A stretch of 64,000 bases of DNA from an uncultured beta proteobacterium (GTDB lineage: Bacteria; Pseudomonadota; Gammaproteobacteria; Burkholderiales; Burkholderiaceae): the NCBI GenBank assembly GCA_903826775.1, contig CAIKFU010000043.1:34583-98582 (forward strand). Direction: 5' to 3'. A model generated the notes under the pieces. The model did no database searches. It saw nothing but the letters and a program-made list of their open reading frames with translations, and was not told the DNA's origin. Positions 5,784 to 58,687 of this stretch are shown here, piece by piece (the stretch's first letter is position 1; every line of letters begins with the position of its first letter). A program made the translations under genes and the position numbers.

Positions 5784-6272
5784 TTATTTGCGCTCCAGAG
5801 TGACGAAACTGAAGTGAATATCCCCTTCGCTGTCCGGGATGCGTTCAACCTCTCGCCATTCCTGCGGATTGGGCACTTCGAAAAAAGTATCTCCCCCGTC
5901 GATTTCGAGTTCGATTTCAGTGATGTAAAGACGGTCTGCTTTCTCAAAGGCTTGTCGAAACAACTGCTCGCCCCCAATGACAAAAACCCTTGGGGAATCT
6001 TCAAGCATGGTGAGTGCACTATCGAGCGAGTTTGCTAGTTCGGTGCCGGTAACTTGAAGATCAGCATTGCGGCTGACTACGATATTGCGTCTACCGGGAA
6101 GGGGACGACCGATTGACTCCCAAGTTTTTCGGCCCATGATGACCGGATAGCCCATAGTTATCTGCTTGAAAAATTTTAAGTCTGCGGAAATTTTCCAAGG
6201 CATTTGGTTATTGCGCCCGATGACCTTGTTGCGCGAGCGCGCAACGATCATGGAGATAGCGGGTTGAGTCAT
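5784..6272 (-). CDS. folA: Dihydrofolate reductase
   Basis: ISMIVARSRNKVIGRNNQMPWKISADLKFFKQIT...VIMGRKTWESIGRPLPGR. Confidence 0.95.
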   Translation of the reverse strand: MTQPAISMIVARSRNKVIGRNNQMPWKISADLKFFKQITMGYPVIMGRKTWESIGRPLPGRRNIVVSRNADLQVTGTELANSLDSALTMLEDSPRVFVIGGEQLFRQAFEKADRLYITEIELEIDGGDTFFEVPNPQEWREVERIPDSEGDIHFSFVTLERK

Positions 6273-6280
6273 TGGGTGAT

Positions 6281-7075
6281 CTAAATGGCTACGGGAGCTT
6301 TGATGTGGGGATGGGATTCGTAACCGGAAATTTCAAAGTCCTCAAATTCGTATTCGAAAAGGGAGTTCGGCTTGCGAAGAATGTTCAGTGTTGGCAATGC
6401 ATACGGCGTTCTGGAAAGTTGCAGATCCACTTGCTCAAGATGGTTGCTATACAGATGGCAGTCCCCTCCGGTCCAAATGAATTCGCCCACCTTGAGGTTG
6501 CATTGTTGGGCAACCAGATGGGTGAGTAGTGCGTAGCTGGCGATATTGAAGGGCACTCCCAAGAAGATGTCTGCGCTGCGCTGATAGAGTTGGCACGACA
6601 GTTTTCCATCGGCTACATAGAATTGGAAAAACGCATGGCAGGGTGCCAATGCCATGCGGGGTATGTCCGCCACATTCCAAGCCGAGACAATCATGCGGCG
6701 CGAGTCGGGATTTGATTTGAGGGTTTCCAAAACCTCTTGGATTTGATCGATGTGTTCGCCATTGGGCGCGGGCCAGGAGCGCCACTGATAGCCATATATG
6801 GGACCTAGGTCACCGTCAGGTGCAGCCCATTCGTTCCAGATGGAAACCCCGCGCTCTTTCAGCCAATTATTGTTGGTGCTGCCATTGATAAACCAGAGCA
6901 GTTCGTAGATGATCGACTTCATATGCAGTTTTTTTGTGGTAACCATCGGAAATCCGGCGGCTAGATCAAAACGCATTTGATGGCCAAAGATGGACACGGT
7001 TCCTGTGCCAGTGCGGTCGGACTTGCGAACTCCTTTGGCAAGGACTTGCTTCATTAAGTCATGGTATTGATGCAT
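6281..7075 (-). CDS. thyA: Thymidylate synthase
   Basis: [22 protein letters not shown]...[10 protein letters not shown]...CQLYQRSAD. Confidence 0.97.
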
Positions 7076-9611: not shown

Positions 9612-9650
9612 CGCGATCTACAACGTACTAGGCAGTATCGATGAAGACCG

Positions 9651-9944
9651 TTATTCAGCATCCACTTCTTCGGGCAATTCCCTAAGGGCCAATTCGATGC
9701 CGCCAAAATTGTCCGCAACCCAGTTGTAGACCTTGCAGGCAATCCACAACAGGCCAAATCCCAATAGAGCATTTAAGATTAACGCGGATAGGACGGTAAA
9801 CCCTGGGATTGCGCCGTCTCGGATAAAGGCGACGAACAGGGCCAAAAGGACGATGGGAACAGAAAAACAGAGGTACACCAGCACCAAAGTTTTGGCGGTG
9901 TGCATCGGGTCAAGGAATACAAGTTCTTTTTTAGTAAGTTTCAT
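9651..9944 (-). CDS. Small hypothetical membrane protein
   Basis: 97 aa, two predicted TM segments. Confidence 0.6.
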   Translation of the reverse strand: MKLTKKELVFLDPMHTAKTLVLVYLCFSVPIVLLALFVAFIRDGAIPGFTVLSALILNALLGFGLLWIACKVYNWVADNFGGIELALRELPEEVDAE

Positions 9945-9956
9945 GATGCAGCAATC

Positions 9957-11285
9957 TTAAAGCAGTCCATCAAAAAGCACCACATCAACCCAATCTCCGG
10001 CAGCGATATTTCCTTGTTCGTGCGCAAGAACAACGAAGCAGTTGGCTTCGCTTACGGAACGCAAAATGCCCGCGCCTTGGCTACCCGTAATACTGACGGC
10101 AGCTTGTCCTTGCTCGTTGCGCCCCAAAATGGCGCGTTGAAATTCGGTACGACCGGGTTTTTTTCGAATGGGCGCTGTGGACAAGGCTTGGACGGTGGGG
10201 ACTTTGGTTTGGGTAGCGCCATTCAATTGCAACAATGCGGCTCTGACAAACTGGTAGAAGGTCACCATGACCGCAACGGGGTTTCCGGGTAAGCCAAAGA
10301 ACAGCGTTTTTCGTGAAAGGGTTTTTCCGGGCAGGGGTTTGAGCGTGCCAAACGCCATTGGCCTGCCGGGACGCATGGCAATTTTCCAAAAACCAACGTC
10401 GCCAAGCTCTTCCATAATTTGCTTGGTGAAATCCGCCTCTCCAGCGGAGACGCCACCGGATGAGATCAGGACATCCGCTTTTTGGGCAGCCTGGCAAAAT
10501 GCCTCTTTTAATGCAATTGGGTCATCGCGCACGATTCCGCAATCGACGATCTCAAGATCAAGTCGTTTCAACATCCCAATTAAACTAAAGCGATTGCTGT
10601 CGTAGATGCTGCCGGCATCCAGTTGCTCCCCGATGCTGCGCAACTCATTTCCTGAAGATAGAATGGCAACTTTTAATTTGCGTTGAACGGTGAGCTTGTC
10701 GATTCCCAGGGACGCTGCCATTCCTAGATCAGAGGGTCGTAGCAACCGACCAGCCAGGATTGCCGGTTTTCCCATTTGCAAATCCTCGCCACGTAGTCGG
10801 CGATTTTCTCCAGGCTTGACGATGTTCTGCTGAAATGAGATGGTTTGACCTTCCAACGTATCGGAGACGGTTACCAATTCCTGCGGGATCACGGTGTCGC
10901 ATCCTGCAGGCATGAGCGCGCCAGTCATGATCTTGATGCATTCACCATCTTGTATTGAACCCATATAGGGTTTTCCGGCGAATGCGCTAGCAACGACTCG
11001 TAGCGTAGCGTTACCTGCCTTACCATGATCCACTTCTTTGCCTTTAAAGGCAAAGCCGTCCATAGCGGAATTGTCTGCCGCAGGGACATCGATGGTTGAT
11101 AGCAAGTCCGCAGACAAAATGCGATTGAGTGCCAACTCCAGCAAGACGGTTTCAACATCGTCCTTGTTTGGGGTTTGGTTCGCCTCTCGGATTAATTCCT
11201 TAACCAGGATTGAGATGGCTTCACGCGCCCGGTCAACATGCAGTGATGAGGTGCCAAGCAGATCGATTGATGTCGGTTTACTCAT
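9957..11285 (-). CDS. moeA: Molybdopterin molybdotransferase MoeA
   Basis: DNSAMDGFAF, PAGCDTVIPQE, SSGGVSAGEADF, GLPGNPVAVMVTF. Confidence 0.95.
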   Translation of the reverse strand: MSKPTSIDLLGTSSLHVDRAREAISILVKELIREANQTPNKDDVETVLLELALNRILSADLLSTIDVPAADNSAMDGFAFKGKEVDHGKAGNATLRVVASAFAGKPYMGSIQDGECIKIMTGALMPAGCDTVIPQELVTVSDTLEGQTISFQQNIVKPGENRRLRGEDLQMGKPAILAGRLLRPSDLGMAASLGIDKLTVQRKLKVAILSSGNELRSIGEQLDAGSIYDSNRFSLIGMLKRLDLEIVDCGIVRDDPIALKEAFCQAAQKADVLISSGGVSAGEADFTKQIMEELGDVGFWKIAMRPGRPMAFGTLKPLPGKTLSRKTLFFGLPGNPVAVMVTFYQFVRAALLQLNGATQTKVPTVQALSTAPIRKKPGRTEFQRAILGRNEQGQAAVSITGSQGAGILRSVSEANCFVVLAHEQGNIAAGDWVDVVLFDGLL

Positions 11286-11890
11286 TCCGAGTTTTTCTCC
11301 AAACTGCTGAGTTCATCCGGAGTGTTGACATTGGAAAATGCTTTCTCATCCTCAAAGACGATGGTAGTGGAACGCAGTTTTCCAAACCAGTGGTCGATTT
11401 TTCGCTCCCCCGATTTGAGAAAATTTTCGAGGGATTTGGCAACACCCTTTTGCATCAGGCAAAAAACCGGCTGTGCCCAAATTTTGCCCATGGCATCTTT
11501 TGAGGAGGCGTAAATTAATTCATGGTTTCCGTCAATAAGTTGCCCACCCATTCTGTTGACGAGGTCGACTGGAAATAGTGGGGTGTCGCACGGGACGGTG
11601 ACAAGGTATTCGGTTTTGCATTCGCGCAGTCCCGCTGCAAATCCGGCCAATGGGCCTGAAAAATCCGGAGTTTCGTCCATGACGATCGGGTATCCATACG
11701 CTGAGTATTGTTCAAGATTGCGATTGGCATTAATTTGGATGCACCCGACCTGATCAATCAGTCTTGCAATAGCAAACTCAATCAGGGGTTTATTTCGAAA
11801 CGCAATCAGGCCCTTGTCAATTCCCCCCATGCGTTGAGCCCGGCCTCCAGCCAAAATTAAGCCAGTGATTTGATGTGTCGGAATCATCAA
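11282..11890 (-). CDS. mobA: Molybdenum cofactor guanylyltransferase MobA
   Basis: [21 protein letters not shown]. Confidence 0.93.
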
Positions 11891-13002
11891 CCGCCGATAT
11901 AGGACATTTCAACTTTGCGGATAGCAGAGTGGTTGCCAGGGGTATTGAGGACGCGAATTTCCGAGTAGTGATCGTCGCGCTTAGCCCAAGTGCCCATGAT
12001 GGCGTTCGTGATTTCCAGATCGCTTTTTCCGGACCGAAGCAGGGTTTTGAAATCGAATCCCTCATTGGCAAACAGGCACAGGTACAACTGCCCGTCGGTT
12101 GAGATTCTCGCTCGCGTGCATTCGTGACAAAAGGTTTGGGTCACGCTGGAAATGACGCCGATTTCCCCTTTACCATCACGGTAGCGCCAACGTTGCGCAA
12201 CTTCCCCGGGATAATTTGCTTGAACCGGCTCAAGCGGAAATTCAGCGTGGATTTTGGAAATCACTTCTTTGGAGGGTAGTACCTCTGCCATATTCCACCC
12301 ATTTGAGCTGCCGACATCCATGAATTCAATAAAACGCAGCGTGATGCCCGTGCCCCGAAAGTGTTTTGCCATTGGAATGATTTCTTGGTCATTGGTGCCT
12401 TTTTTGACAACCATGTTGACCTTGATCGATTCAAAGCCGGCGGCTTGCGCTGCTGCAATGCCCTTGAGAACATCATCAACCGGGAAGTCAACGTCGTTCA
12501 TTTTCCGAAAAACGGCATCGTCCAATCCATCCAGGCTGACGGTCACTCTTTGCAATCCGGCTTGTTTTAGTAAGGCCGATTTTTTTTGCAGAAGGCTTCC
12601 ATTGGTGGTGAGTGTCAAATCGAGGGGAAGACCGGCTGGGGTGCGAATCTTGCTAAGAAGCCCAATCAAAATTTCCAGATTCTTGCGTAACAGCGGTTCG
12701 CCTCCAGTGAGGCGAATCTTCTCAACCCCTAAGGTTGAAAAGATCCCGGTTAGGCGCGTGATTTCCTCAAAAGTTAACAGGTCTTGGTGGGAAAGATACG
12801 GATAGCTTTGGTTAAATATTCCCTTGGGCATGCAGTACGTGCACCGAAAATTGCAGCGGTCTGTAACGGAAATGCGCAGATCCCTTAAATTGCGACCACG
12901 CAGATCCTGGTTTTGCAGCTGAGCTGGCGTGAGCAATGCGGGAATATGCGGCACCTGTCCTGTGCCTTCATCGATGCGGATGGGGATTACTTTTTCAACC
13001 AT
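11887..13002 (-). CDS. moaA: GTP 3',8-cyclase MoaA (radical SAM)
   Basis: [19 protein letters not shown] and C-terminal cysteine cluster [21 protein letters not shown]. Confidence 0.95.
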
Positions 13003-52655: not shown

Positions 52656-52939
52656 ACCCGGTTTTGTACGGGCACTCAACCGCTGGGATCGTCGCTGCTG
52701 CAATGGATTGATTGATATGCCAAACCAATAGACTGATACATCGCAAACTCTAAACCTCGACCTTACCGTCAGGGTTTTATATTTAAAGGAACTACTAAAT
52801 TCAAGGTCTAAGGTCTCTTAATCGGCCAAAGCCGCCTGTCGCTCAGGTCTAAACCGGGTAAACGATGAACGGCCGCTTTTCGGCAAGCTATTAGAGGGGG
52901 GTGACGGGCAAAGAACGGCCACAAACGGGCTCCCAAGAA

Positions 52940-53269
52940 TTATTTCACGAGAGTAACGGTACCTATATATTGATGCGGTTTATTCTTGTCTGGTGGTCCA
53001 CCCGCACCTCCTGAATTTGGTGCAGCACCCCCCTTGTTAGCAGTCGAGTTATTTGGAGAAGGCGTAATCGTATTACCTGATCCAGGCTTGCCGGAATTTG
53101 CAGTACTGCCAGTCGGCAAACCCGATTGGGGATCGCGTGGGGATACGATCTGGTTACTTTCGGCGCTTGTATTGGATGCGCCAACATTCAGAATAAGTAA
53201 GATTACGGCTAATGCTAGACTCTGAAAACTTATTCGAGTGGTTATCTTAGGAACATTATTTGAATGCAT
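52940..53269 (-). CDS. Small exported low-complexity protein ending in HQYIGTVTLVK
   Basis: N-terminal hydrophobic signal; G/P/N/S-rich mature part; RBS CCAAGGAGACGCACC before ATG; C-terminus shared with the 53895 gene. Confidence 0.7.
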   Translation of the reverse strand: MHSNNVPKITTRISFQSLALAVILLILNVGASNTSAESNQIVSPRDPQSGLPTGSTANSGKPGSGNTITPSPNNSTANKGGAAPNSGGAGGPPDKNKPHQYIGTVTLVK

Positions 53270-53328
53270 GGTGCGTCTCCTTGGTCAATGTGTATTGCAA
53301 TCAATGCATGTAAACCCACAGCACTTAT

Positions 53329-53592
53329 TTATTTTTTGTAGGTGGAAATACCTCCCGACGAACCTTGATCAGAAATCTGCTTGCCTCCATTGCCGGGGGT
53401 TGCGGGACCTTTCGCAGGAGCGGGTGCAACGGGTGCGCCCTTGTTGGCACCATTCGGATTCGCGGGATTTGGTGCTGCAATACCATTGTTTTTTCCGAGA
53501 TTTACATCAACATCTGGAATAGGCGATCCGGCAAACGCCCATCCCGCAGTCAACATGCCGACGGCAATTAACAGTAGCTTGGAAATTGTCAT
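53329..53592 (-). CDS. Small exported low-complexity protein with LGKNNGIAAPNPANPN motif
   Basis: Signal peptide MTISKLLLIAVGMLTAGWAFAG; strong RBS AAGGAGG; motif shared with the 53895 gene. Confidence 0.72.
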   Translation of the reverse strand: MTISKLLLIAVGMLTAGWAFAGSPIPDVDVNLGKNNGIAAPNPANPNGANKGAPVAPAPAKGPATPGNGGKQISDQGSSGGISTYKK

Positions 53593-53894
53593 AAAACCTC
53601 CTTGGTGATCCGGTTCAATCTATTCCCTATGAGAAGACAGTGCAATAGTGAGTAACTCTAGGCAGAAGTATTTAATTTGCCGTATTGCCCTAAATCTTCA
53701 ATACAAGATCAATATTTGATGTATATCAAATTACCAGCCTAATGTATTGGCTGATCCCTATAGATTGCGTTGTGAGTTTGAACTAGCATTATCAAAAAAT
53801 GGGATTGCTTTTGCACCATTGAATCGACCACTAAAACGCGGTAAGGCAGCATCATGGCTTTCCATCAGAACAATAGCCTTTCAAGGAGACGCAG

Positions 53895-54197
53895 ATGCAA
53901 AATCAATATTCTTCAGTTACTAGCATATATGCAGGATGGAAAAGAAGTTTGGCAATGATCGTTTCCGGACTCCTATTGACCCAGAGTTGGGTATATGCAG
54001 GAGAGCCTAATGCAGGCGCTGATTCCAAACTTGGAAAAAATAATGGGGTTGCAGCACCAAGCCCTACTAATCCCAATAATCCGCAAACCAGTTCAACCCC
54101 TAAATCAGTACAGCCTAATCAGAACCAGGTGAATGGCGCTAATCCAACGCAACCGCCTACTCATAATTACAAAGGCATCGTTACTCTGCTGAAGTAA
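53895..54197 (+). CDS. Small exported low-complexity protein with LGKNNGVAAPSPTNPN and HNYKGIVTLLK motifs
   Basis: Signal peptide; RBS TCAAGGAGACGCAG; shares motifs with both divergent neighbours. Confidence 0.75.
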   Translation: MQNQYSSVTSIYAGWKRSLAMIVSGLLLTQSWVYAGEPNAGADSKLGKNNGVAAPSPTNPNNPQTSSTPKSVQPNQNQVNGANPTQPPTHNYKGIVTLLK

Positions 54198-54237
54198 TTT
54201 GACAGTCAAATGTAATGATGTCTTCTTCATTAATTTA

Positions 54238-55473
54238 ATGGCCTCCATTTTCCAATTTCTTCTGCTTCTTATTTGTGTTGCCACTCCTCTTGCACATGTT
54301 CAAGCACAGCCTTTTTCTCCGGGCGACCCCTCCGAAGTGACGTTCGCATCCATTAACCTTGAGCAGTACCTCTCCCAGGTAAGAGAGAACAACGCGACGA
54401 TTGGCGGCAGGAGATTGGGTCTTCAGACGGCCACCGCCAACAAGACGGCCCAATCGTTACCCAACACGAGGCCGAACATCAGCTATTCGCGGGGTTCTTG
54501 GTATCAGATGTTGCCCTATACCCCGTATACCACCCCCGCATCCAATACCTATAGCCTGAGCGTAAATGTTGAAGGTTGGGGTAAGCGCGAGGCTAGGGGC
54601 GATTATGCCCAAGCCGAAATCGGGCGCAGTACTGTAGAACTGGATTCCACCACCGTCACGATTGAGACCAGTGCGTTATATGCCTATATCGATACCTTAC
54701 GCAACCGCATGCAGTGGCAAACTTACCTGAGCGCTCTTGAGAAATTAAATAACTTGCCGAGCAGCCCCAAGACCAAGACCGCCGAACAAAATCTTCTGAC
54801 TGGCAAGACTGCTGCGTTTGATGATCTGCAGTACAACGCCTTGGGCATGCTGAACTATTCGGGCGATGCGATCCGTGATTTGCCGTTTCCAAAGGGCAGG
54901 CTCGATCTTCCCTCGCAGTCCTTTCAATTGATTGCGTTGGTGGAGCAGGCCCAAAAGAGCCGAGTTGATGTGTTGTCCACCGAAGCAGCGATGCAGTCTG
55001 CGGAGAAAAATGTCGCCTTGACGCAAAAGAACCGGATGATGGATATCAGTCCGTACGTTTCCTACACCACCACCCCCCAGTATGACTCAAGCGGTTTTAC
55101 GTACACGCGCCAGACAGCCGTCTCGGCGGGGGTATCGATACCCATTCCGGTGAACAACTTTTTGCAGGACGCCGATCTCGTTCAAGCATCCAATGCGAAG
55201 ACCGAACTGGAAATGATCTATCGCGATTTAAAAGTGCGGATTCGTAACGAGGTCAGTCAGGCGCTCTTGCAATACAACGTGGCAAAAAAGCAATTGGCGC
55301 AGGCCGATTTGGCGTATTCGCAATCATCGGCCAGTCCCGATAAGGACGCGGTGCAGGCTATTGCGAACGAGAGGGATCGCATGGGCGAACTTATCGATGC
55401 CTGGACCAACCATGTCAAAGCTTTGATCAATGTCATGCGTATGAGTGGCGACTATGCCGTACCCAAAATCTAA
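54238..55473 (+). CDS. TolC-family outer-membrane efflux protein
   Basis: Signal peptide, coiled-coil repeats (VLSTEAAMQSAEKNVALTQKNRMMDISPYVSY), VSIPIPV; start approximate (a TTG start at 54199 is also possible). Confidence 0.8.
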   Translation: MASIFQFLLLLICVATPLAHVQAQPFSPGDPSEVTFASINLEQYLSQVRENNATIGGRRLGLQTATANKTAQSLPNTRPNISYSRGSWYQMLPYTPYTTPASNTYSLSVNVEGWGKREARGDYAQAEIGRSTVELDSTTVTIETSALYAYIDTLRNRMQWQTYLSALEKLNNLPSSPKTKTAEQNLLTGKTAAFDDLQYNALGMLNYSGDAIRDLPFPKGRLDLPSQSFQLIALVEQAQKSRVDVLSTEAAMQSAEKNVALTQKNRMMDISPYVSYTTTPQYDSSGFTYTRQTAVSAGVSIPIPVNNFLQDADLVQASNAKTELEMIYRDLKVRIRNEVSQALLQYNVAKKQLAQADLAYSQSSASPDKDAVQAIANERDRMGELIDAWTNHVKALINVMRMSGDYAVPKI

Positions 55474-55483
55474 AGGACAACGG

Positions 55484-56044
55484 ATGAAAATACGCCATAG
55501 ACTAATGGCTGTTGTGTTCACGCTGACTCAGCTTGCTACAAGTTCCACTGCGTTTAGTCAAGCGGCTGGCGGAGGAGGTGCAGCTGGTGGCAGTGCGGCT
55601 GGAGGTGCAGGGTCGCCAGTAGCTCCAACACCAACACCAACACCAACACCAACACCAACACCAACACCAACACCAACACCAACACCTAAGACTGCTCCTG
55701 CACCAACCAATCCTTCGCAGGCACCCGGTCCTGGCAATTCATCGGCCGCTCAGAGCCTAGGTTCTCCTTCAAATCAGGTTGCTCCGCAGAACGTCGGCTC
55801 TAATCAGGCTTGGGTGGTTCGCAATAATTTATTGAACAATGCGCCGCAATTAAATTCCACGAACAAGGCGGCCCCCAGTCTGTCGAGTTTTCGCAATGGT
55901 CTTTCCCGCACGAATCCCTACTCACCCAAAACAGAATCCGCAAATACTTCCAAAGGATTGGCTAAAGAGGCGAACCCGGCCATCAAGAGCAATACCCAAG
56001 GCCTCCTCTTTTTGAGCCCATCGCCATTGGCGCCGGAGAAGTGA
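55484..56044 (+). CDS. Exported Pro/Thr-repeat low-complexity protein
   Basis: Signal peptide MKIRHRLMAVVFTLTQLATSSTAFSQA, G/A-rich then (PT)n, ends PLAPEK. Confidence 0.65.
   Translation: MKIRHRLMAVVFTLTQLATSSTAFSQAAGGGGAAGGSAAGGAGSPVAPTPTPTPTPTPTPTPTPTPTPKTAPAPTNPSQAPGPGNSSAAQSLGSPSNQVAPQNVGSNQAWVVRNNLLNNAPQLNSTNKAAPSLSSFRNGLSRTNPYSPKTESANTSKGLAKEANPAIKSNTQGLLFLSPSPLAPEK
55625..55684 (+). repeat. Hexanucleotide tandem repeat (CCAACA)x10 encoding poly-(PT)
   Basis: Ten perfect consecutive CCAACA units counted in sequence. Confidence 0.97.
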
Positions 56045-56127: not shown

Positions 56128-56152
56128 AAGGAGAATTAATATGAAATCCAAA
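56128..56152 (+). repeat. 25-bp direct repeat (copy 1) spanning RBS and start of the 56141 gene
   Basis: AAGGAGAATTAATATGAAATCCAAA identical to 56469-56493. Confidence 0.97.
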
Positions 56153-56434
56153 AAATCTCGTACCCAAGCCAAGCGTAAATTGGCGTTCGCTATTATCGGC
56201 GCTTCACTTGGAGCAGGGATGGCCCCACTTGTTAGTAAGGCTGCAGACATTAACGTGCAGTCACCAGCTGCGCCTAACTCAAACGCCTCTAAAGGAGCAG
56301 CGCAACCCGCTGCGATTTCTTCGACTAAACCCGCTTCCCCTAAGCCTGTTCCAGTAAAAACAATGTCTTGGGCGCACGATGATGAAGCGCCTAAGCGAGC
56401 ATTGCAACAACCGGGTAATCCCAAAAATAAGTGA
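56141..56434 (+). CDS. Small exported low-complexity protein
   Basis: Signal-like N-terminus KRKLAFAIIGASLGAGMAPLVSKAADI; P/A/S/K-rich; ends NPKNK. Confidence 0.68.
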   Translation: MKSKKSRTQAKRKLAFAIIGASLGAGMAPLVSKAADINVQSPAAPNSNASKGAAQPAAISSTKPASPKPVPVKTMSWAHDDEAPKRALQQPGNPKNK

Positions 56435-56468: not shown

Positions 56469-56493
56469 AAGGAGAATTAATATGAAATCCAAA
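56469..56493 (+). repeat. 25-bp direct repeat (copy 2) spanning RBS and start of the 56482 gene
   Basis: Identical to 56128-56152. Confidence 0.97.
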
Positions 56494-56754
56494 TACACTC
56501 GTTCAACGAACGAACTGAAAACCGCACTAACTATTCTTGCTGTATTAATCGGAGTGGGAATGACTCCGGTGGCTAATTCAGATCCAACAGATCAAATATC
56601 ATTAAATTTTCAGAAGAAAGATGCGCCGGCTCCAACGCCTGGAGCAAATTCCGGGAAGGCTGCTCCTGTGGCCAATTCAGCGAACCCTAAACCTGTGCCA
56701 CCTTCTTCGTTTCCGGGTGCGCCTAGTCGAGGGAAAACTGCTAGTTCAAAATAG
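56482..56754 (+). CDS. Small exported low-complexity protein, tandem paralog of the previous gene
   Basis: Shared start region; signal-like LKTALTILAVLIGVGMTPVANS; ends TASSK. Confidence 0.68.
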   Translation: MKSKYTRSTNELKTALTILAVLIGVGMTPVANSDPTDQISLNFQKKDAPAPTPGANSGKAAPVANSANPKPVPPSSFPGAPSRGKTASSK

Positions 56755-57021: not shown

Positions 57022-58128
57022 GTGCCAAACAGAAGATCATTCATCAAGAACGTTGCAACTCTGGGAATTTTTTCGTCAATCCAGCCAACCTTTCCAGAAA
57101 ACACTCGGTTTGATTTTGCGTTCGCCGCTAAGAAAAATAGGCTTCATGTTCACTACGAATGGGGCAAGCTTGAGGAGGTCATCGTGGGCTATCCCTATTT
57201 AAGGATAGGCGGCGCAATGCCAAAAGCGGTTGGGAAATTTCTTCGCCACAATCCAAAAACCGCACCGCTAAAGCAAGCCTGGTTGGAAGCGGATTCAAAA
57301 CTGCCGCTTGAAAAGTTTGCGCCAGAATTGGCAAAACAAAATGATCAGATGAATGCTGCTATCACGATACTTCAAGGTCGAGGGATTCGGGTTCATCAAG
57401 TGGATCGAATCAACGACAGTGAGCTGGCGTTTGAGGAAAGTATTGGCTCTGCATGCTTGCAACAATTTGTTCGGGACCCCATACTGGTGATTGGCGATCG
57501 ATACATTGAACTGCCGATGCATATGCCATACCGTCGTAAAGAGCGCTTCCCCATTCGCAGAACCCTTGAGCCTCGCTTGAATGATCTCAAGGTCTCCATC
57601 ATTTCTGCACCTGAACCCTACCCGCTTCCCGAGGATGCGCAAGGCAGCTTTGGATCATCCGCATTTTTAGAAGGTGGCGATATTTTGTTGTTTGGAAAAG
57701 AGATTTATGTTGGCAATTCTGGCAATGCTTCCAATCGCAAAGGAATCACTTGGCTACAAACCCAGTTGGGAAGCAGTTATCGGGTTCATGAGGTGAGAAT
57801 GAGTAATGAGTTCTTGCATCTCGATTGCGGACTATGCACTCCAAGACCTGGGCTAGCGATCATTTGCCGCGAGGCTTTTCCCGATGGTCTGCCAGACTGT
57901 ATTAAGGGGTGGGAGCTGATTGAAGTCAATAAAGAAGATGCTGAAATGAAGATGGCTTGCAACGGACTGATTCTGGATCAAAAGAGCATTCTTATCGGCT
58001 CTGAAAATGTTCTCCTTGCCGACAAGCTGGGTAAGGCAGGCTTGAATGTTTACACCACCCCTTTTGACATGGTGACGCCATTAGGTGGCGGTTTTAGATG
58101 CTGGCATCACCCATTAATTCGTGTCTAG
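57022..58128 (+). CDS. Amidinotransferase/guanidino-modifying-superfamily protein with Tat-like signal
   Basis: NRRSFIKNVATLGIF twin-Arg motif; EEVIVGYPYLR; EGGDILLFGKEIYVG; HLDCGLCTPRPG; GGGFRCWHHPLIRV with candidate catalytic His/Cys. Confidence 0.8.
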   Translation: MPNRRSFIKNVATLGIFSSIQPTFPENTRFDFAFAAKKNRLHVHYEWGKLEEVIVGYPYLRIGGAMPKAVGKFLRHNPKTAPLKQAWLEADSKLPLEKFAPELAKQNDQMNAAITILQGRGIRVHQVDRINDSELAFEESIGSACLQQFVRDPILVIGDRYIELPMHMPYRRKERFPIRRTLEPRLNDLKVSIISAPEPYPLPEDAQGSFGSSAFLEGGDILLFGKEIYVGNSGNASNRKGITWLQTQLGSSYRVHEVRMSNEFLHLDCGLCTPRPGLAIICREAFPDGLPDCIKGWELIEVNKEDAEMKMACNGLILDQKSILIGSENVLLADKLGKAGLNVYTTPFDMVTPLGGGFRCWHHPLIRV

Positions 58129-58408
58129 TATTTTTGATCTTAGGTTGTAATGCTGTTGAGAAAATCGGAAATAAAAATACTAACTCGGGTATTTTTTACT
58201 TTTAGGTAAACGAACTCTCATCTTCAATTAGAAGTCGTCTAAAAACGGCCAACAAGAGTCACTCAGCCTACCCTTTAATATTGCAATGCAACGCAACCTC
58301 AAAGCGCAGATTGGAATGAAGTTAATGAATAAATACGGAATTGATTATGATTTTATTGATTGTTCTTTTCTTCAGGTATAGAATTATTTTCTTTACGAAG
58401 GAGGTGCT

Positions 58409-58687
58409 ATGAAAATTTCTAAGCTACTGTTAATTACCGTATTTTCACTTATAAGTACAGTTGCGGTATCCGCCGTAATGGAAGCGAAAAAGGAAAGTGT
58501 AGCCGCAACACCTGAACCAAAAGCAATGACTAATCCGAATGGTGTCAAGGGAGCGCAACCGCAGTCATTTACCGCGCCTAAAGCACCAGGTGCAGATCCA
58601 GCAAAAGGAGTTGCAGGCAATACAAAACCTACGAACCAAGGGCGGGAATCAGTTCCCCTAGGTTATATGGATGGCCATGCCAAGTAA
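58409..58687 (+). CDS. Small exported low-complexity protein
   Basis: RBS AAGGAGG; signal MKISKLLLITVFSLISTVAVSA (cf. MTISKLLLIAVG at 53592); P/A/K-rich; ends GHAK. Confidence 0.68.
   Translation: MKISKLLLITVFSLISTVAVSAVMEAKKESVAATPEPKAMTNPNGVKGAQPQSFTAPKAPGADPAKGVAGNTKPTNQGRESVPLGYMDGHAK

Follow-up and report, generated by a model that had tools for sequence, protein, structure and literature searches.

The window analyzed here is a stretch of 64,000 nt, and the genes that concern us lie around two short divergent ORFs with about 300 bp between their start codons. We take the host genus to be Polynucleobacter, judging from the names attached to the relatives of its channel protein. The genes, called below by their first coordinate, are:

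52940–53269, minus strand: small, predicted secreted low-complexity protein, 109 aa, with a hydrophobic signal-like N-terminus, RBS AAGGAGACG and C-terminus HQYIGTVTLVK.
53329–53592, minus strand: small, predicted secreted protein, 87 aa, with signal AFA↓G and motif LGKNNGIAAPNPANPN.
53895–54197, plus strand: small, predicted secreted protein, 100 aa, with signal VYA↓G, motif LGKNNGVAAPSPTNPN and C-terminus HNYKGIVTLLK.
54238–55473, plus strand: TolC-family outer-membrane channel, 411 aa from ATG, with an in-frame upstream TTG at 54199.
55484–56044, plus strand: predicted secreted low-complexity protein of the P2 family, 186 aa, ending in KSNTQGLLFLSPSPLAPEK.
55625–55686, plus strand: CCAACA in 10.3 perfect copies, which encode a Pro-Thr stretch within 55484.
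55985–56041, plus strand: conserved C-terminal segment KSNTQGLLFLSPSPLAPEK of 55484, defined from the P2 alignment (A2) and a C-terminal motif test.
56141–56434, plus strand: small, predicted secreted low-complexity protein, paralogue of 56482.
56482–56754, plus strand: small, predicted secreted low-complexity protein, paralogue of 56141.
58409–58687, plus strand: small, predicted secreted low-complexity protein whose head is common with 53329.

The initial annotation had singled out a motif, LGKNNG(I/V)AAPxPxNPN, common to 53329 and 53895, and both ORFs and both peptides that it quoted are present in the window (across the predicted cleavage sites, assigned by eye here as in the other small proteins, they read WAFA↓GSPIPDVDVNLGKNNGIAAPNPANPNG and WVYA↓GEPNAGADSKLGKNNGVAAPSPTNPNN). 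The full-length proteins align with a local score of 120, compared with a mean of 32 (sd 6) for composition-preserving shuffles, none of which reached it in 1000 trials, and the mature parts score 90 (shuffle mean 37, sd 7; 0 of 2000). At the DNA level the identity is 72% over 90 nt (E 5e-9), in the following segments:

53452–53541, minus strand: end of the signal peptide plus motif of 53329.
53988–54077, plus strand: its counterpart in 53895.

P, N, G, A, S, and T abound in each of the seven small proteins, but shuffling retains composition, so that P/N bias alone, the objection that the annotation had raised against itself, is insufficient to account for this likeness and, given also the DNA identity, very improbable as its explanation. 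The motif does lie just past the cleavage site, as proposed, although the similarity begins already around residue 4 of 53329, within the signal peptide. Identical motif residues are encoded with synonymous differences (CTC/CTT, AAC/AAT, GGT/GGG, CCC/CCT, and CCG/CCC); the residues have been kept although their third codon positions have changed, so these are no recent copies, and the motif looks like old conservation at the protein level rather than a fresh copy.

A profile of the pair, run against 186 genomes of the same genus, matched in the window's own genome only, the next-best hits (E 0.006–0.1) looking unrelated on inspection. No relative of the motif was found in the first 36 genomes of the genus (own genome aside) or in 24 genomes from other families of the order, nor in pattern scans of GTDB species genomes and of viral contigs, which may overlook diverged copies. 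Because the motif is confined to the window genome in everything searched, the Burkholderiales-wide HMM scan that had been suggested has no targets. The small proteins gave nothing above cut-off against Pfam and NCBIfam, and hits in a promoter and terminator scan were no more frequent than in shuffles.

Beyond the motif, several short segments connect the small genes with one another:

53272–53283, minus strand: leader/RBS CAAGGAGACGCA of 52940.
53882–53893, plus strand: leader/RBS CAAGGAGACGCA of 53895.
52938–52975, minus strand: 3' end of 52940 (C-terminal module and stop), common with 53895.
54162–54199, plus strand: 3' end of 53895, matching 52940.
53561–53606, minus strand: 46-nt head of 53329 (RBS and start of the signal peptide), common with 58409 at 87% identity.
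58395–58440, plus strand: 46-nt head of 58409, matching 53329.

The 12-nt leader precedes an ATG exactly twice in the genome of 2.56 Mb (at 52940 and 53895), where random sequence would give about 0.01 occurrences. At the opposite end of the same two genes, the last 38 nt including the stop align with a local DNA score of 31 (shuffle mean 20, sd 2). The earlier proposal that 53895 carries the C-terminal module of 52940 is significant at the protein level as well (0 of 2000 shuffles of the last 30 residues), although the link is short, HxYxGxVTLxK; for the mature 53895 and 52940, 7 of 2000 shuffles reach the observed score. A residual trace of the LGKNNG motif in 52940 (NKGGAAPN) was not significant (p 0.17). 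The paralogues 56141 and 56482 (alignment score 98, shuffle mean 36) share a 46-nt head too, different from that of 53329 and 58409. The nearest relative of a gene thus depends on which of its parts is compared, and conserved heads are followed by variable bodies. In sister clusters of other Polynucleobacter, blocks are reused in non-colinear order at about 80–94% DNA identity; for instance, nt 65–113 and 501–583 of one gene (L054:12127) match nt 542–590 and 345–427, respectively, of another (L090:11900) at 86–94%. A homology between the C-terminus of 53895 and the P2 tail (NYKGIVTL and NTQGLLFL) was also considered and is not claimed (p 0.065).

Modular shuffling within one family, as this pattern had been interpreted, is therefore sustained in part: the family is real and its members share sequence segment by segment, but the data do not tell recombination apart from an uneven divergence of the duplicates, since the segments of 52940, 53329, and 53895 are colinear. 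That these three genes are colinear duplicates, unevenly diverged by indels in disordered linkers and with no recombination between them, is quite possible, if short of an even chance. Both the segments common to 52940 and 53895 and those common to 53329 and 53895 keep the same order, and the synonymous differences within the motif speak against a recent exchange. On the other side, the closest relative changes with the gene segment even at the untranslated leader, and the blocks of the sister clusters are permuted.

The channel gene 54238 is recognized by Pfam OEP with 58.2 bits (cut-off 22, E 1.3e-15). Its AlphaFold model, for which an alignment of the related loci was the input, has a pLDDT of 84.6 and displays the TolC order of helices and strands, in two repeats of strands plus long helices. 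Foldseek matched this model to TolC, OprM, and CusC (E down to 1e-15 for TolC, TM about 0.6), while identity to the best solved OEP members is about 13–16%. The best match to a characterized family, the metal exporter subunit IhpA, is weak (1.7e-5, far below its cut-off). The protein terminates right after the OEP fold, with no fused collagen-like domain. We found the channel in 25 of the 186 genus genomes and not in other genera (399 genomes from 157 sampled Burkholderiales genera, E ≤ 1e-25); of 11 GTDB matches, 10 were Polynucleobacter or betaproteobacterial/Burkholderiaceae MAGs and one a distant Chryseobacterium protein. The channel neighborhoods read, i.e., the window surroundings and the related loci, showed neither an inner-membrane pump nor a periplasmic adaptor. 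In one of these loci (L056, genome G172, 9625–10850) the channel frame is in pieces, with in-frame stops and a frameshift, next to an intact P2 partner, and represents either a pseudogene or an assembly error.

What the neighborhoods do contain are small proteins with signal peptides and a high content of P, G, A, N, S, and T. When secreted ORFs were picked by a simple home-made signal-peptide rule, 30 of the 32 low-complexity ones detected fell within 5.5 kb of a channel (the search covered 187 kb near channels and 170 kb far from them; binomial 4e-7, or 7e-5 without the window, the related loci not being independent). In nearly all loci a gene of this kind lies directly downstream of the channel, and its type follows the clade of the channel tree. 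Clade A (support 100/99) is paired with P2 proteins carrying KSxxQG(M/L)xF(I/L), clade B with Ala-rich proteins ending roughly in PTDSxNYxxxSPT, and clade C with N/Q-rich or Gly/Pro/Met-rich proteins. The P2 profile A2 had eight strong matches in the 186 genomes, all beside clade A channels. A C-terminal [FY][IVL]xxxP occurs in 2/7, 13/16, and 2/3 partners of clades A, B, and C (expected 0.16, 0.06, and 0.05), which we regard as a lead, since the pattern was picked post hoc from the sequences and clade B members are mutually homologous; 53329, 53895, and 52940 do not have this tail.

Several other features of these loci deserve mention. The CCAACA repeats of 55484 have a 6-nt unit and can change in length without a frameshift, and their perfect copies suggest that such a change may have been recent. 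One P2 protein (L054, 10679–12130) has a long C-terminal extension, reaching 483 aa compared to about 125–190 aa elsewhere. A second conserved small Pro-rich protein, putatively secreted, G(F/L)G(F/Y)(D/N)PF...PTS, appears close to clade B channels, on the far side of a lipase-like gene (L058, 12047–12298, with equivalents in L059, L060, L062, L066, L069, and L094). Amid the small genes of the window, 57022–58128 has a twin-arginine-like start (RRSFIK) and similarity to arginine deiminase. Finally, two similarly ending frames flank locus L092 of genome G175 (6040–6513 and 11664–12791) with transposase-like frames between them; the longer one is weakly asparagine-synthase-like (Pfam 0.0075, below cut-off), and they are possibly a peptide-maturation cluster.

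Our preferred reading, held tentatively and a little below even confidence, is that of a Polynucleobacter-specific locus composed of one TolC-type channel and a set of small, low-complexity (P/G/N/A/T-rich), probably disordered proteins with Sec-type signal peptides. With the same tentative degree of belief, we propose that the solitary channel exports or displays these diversifying proteins, as MacAB-TolC or Aat do in their second step but with no inner-membrane parts. The small proteins would pass through Sec, be cut by signal peptidase I, and then exit through, or be displayed by, a channel reserved for them, forming a variable coat or matrix on the cell surface; the tail conserved at the C-terminus of the downstream partner would perhaps serve for recognition. 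Duplication and segment exchange would allow fast variation of the repertoire, and an LGKNNG module confined to a single genome would follow from this. A more specific version, with the genus-restricted channel exporting a hypervariable disordered set by means of the C-terminal tail ([FY][IVL]xxxP or QG-hydrophobic-F) and with conserved heads and shuffled blocks building new coat proteins, is to us unlikely as a whole. Against the export of cargo stand the neighborhoods read, with neither pump nor adaptor to supply energy, and the only MacB_PCD match in the window genome, a 423-aa frame that agrees in size with LolC/E rather than MacB.

Two alternatives bear on this function. The channel could be a common outer-membrane factor for efflux that works with pumps encoded elsewhere, and the small proteins could be disordered proteins of the periplasm or of stress responses, linked to it by no more than a regulon or an insertion hotspot. 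The IhpA match, weak as it is, and the missing inner-membrane partner nearby would fit, but we hold this unlikely, since the partner type tracks the channel clade and adjoins the channel in nearly every locus, and the position of all strong P2 matches beside channels is a pairing not expected from a mere hotspot. A little less likely still, in our view, is that the small proteins belong to the channel as accessory subunits (a plug, a sheath, or a tether, on its periplasmic or outer face) and are not cargo. In the downstream partner, the close spacing, the clade matching, and the conserved tail at the C-terminus agree with a subunit, as do solved structures of E. coli TolC with the lipoprotein YbjP bound, entries among the Foldseek matches; however, the other multi-copy, hypervariable proteins of the same loci would be left unexplained.

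We found no literature on such a system in Polynucleobacter, and a locus combining a channel with low-complexity proteins is apparently undescribed. Were export or display by the channel correct, a common freshwater genus would devote a channel of its own to disordered coat proteins in rapid evolution. This would be a bacterial counterpart of the eukaryotic secreted families with a conserved head and a variable body, and a minimal system in which Sec-to-TolC export with no known pump could be tested. It would also mean that reuse of blocks between genes can be recognized from short motifs common to orphan secreted proteins. Were the small proteins subunits of the channel and nothing more, their pairing with it by clade would still give a clear lead on an unannotated family.

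Among known systems, the Aat system of E. coli takes a small Sec-exported cargo (dispersin/CexE) out by a TolC-like channel system, and mature CexE begins with glycine (PMC7943197). With the cleavage sites assigned by eye, mature 53329 and 53895 would also start with glycine, whereas most proteins of the sister loci seem to start with Q or another residue. We saw no AatPC ABC transporter and no AatB adaptor, either around the window or in the related loci, and the window genome has a single LNT_N (Lnt-type) protein, hence no separate AatD, for which reason the system is not Aat. MacAB-TolC exports the heat-stable enterotoxin II in two steps, Sec and then a TolC-type channel (PMC8277102); the same succession is proposed here, although MacA was not seen nearby. 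Bucl8 of Burkholderia, a collagen-like outer-membrane efflux protein, is reported to have its collagen-like portion fused to the channel, in an operon with genes for a pump (PMC7682875). In both cases a TolC-type protein is associated with low-complexity polypeptide, extracellular in Bucl8 and putatively so in our loci, where it is encoded by separate genes with no pump genes adjacent. With the TolC/outer-membrane factor family (Pfam OEP) at large, the channel has in common its fold and domain order, while at the low identity given above it forms a subfamily restricted to the genus.
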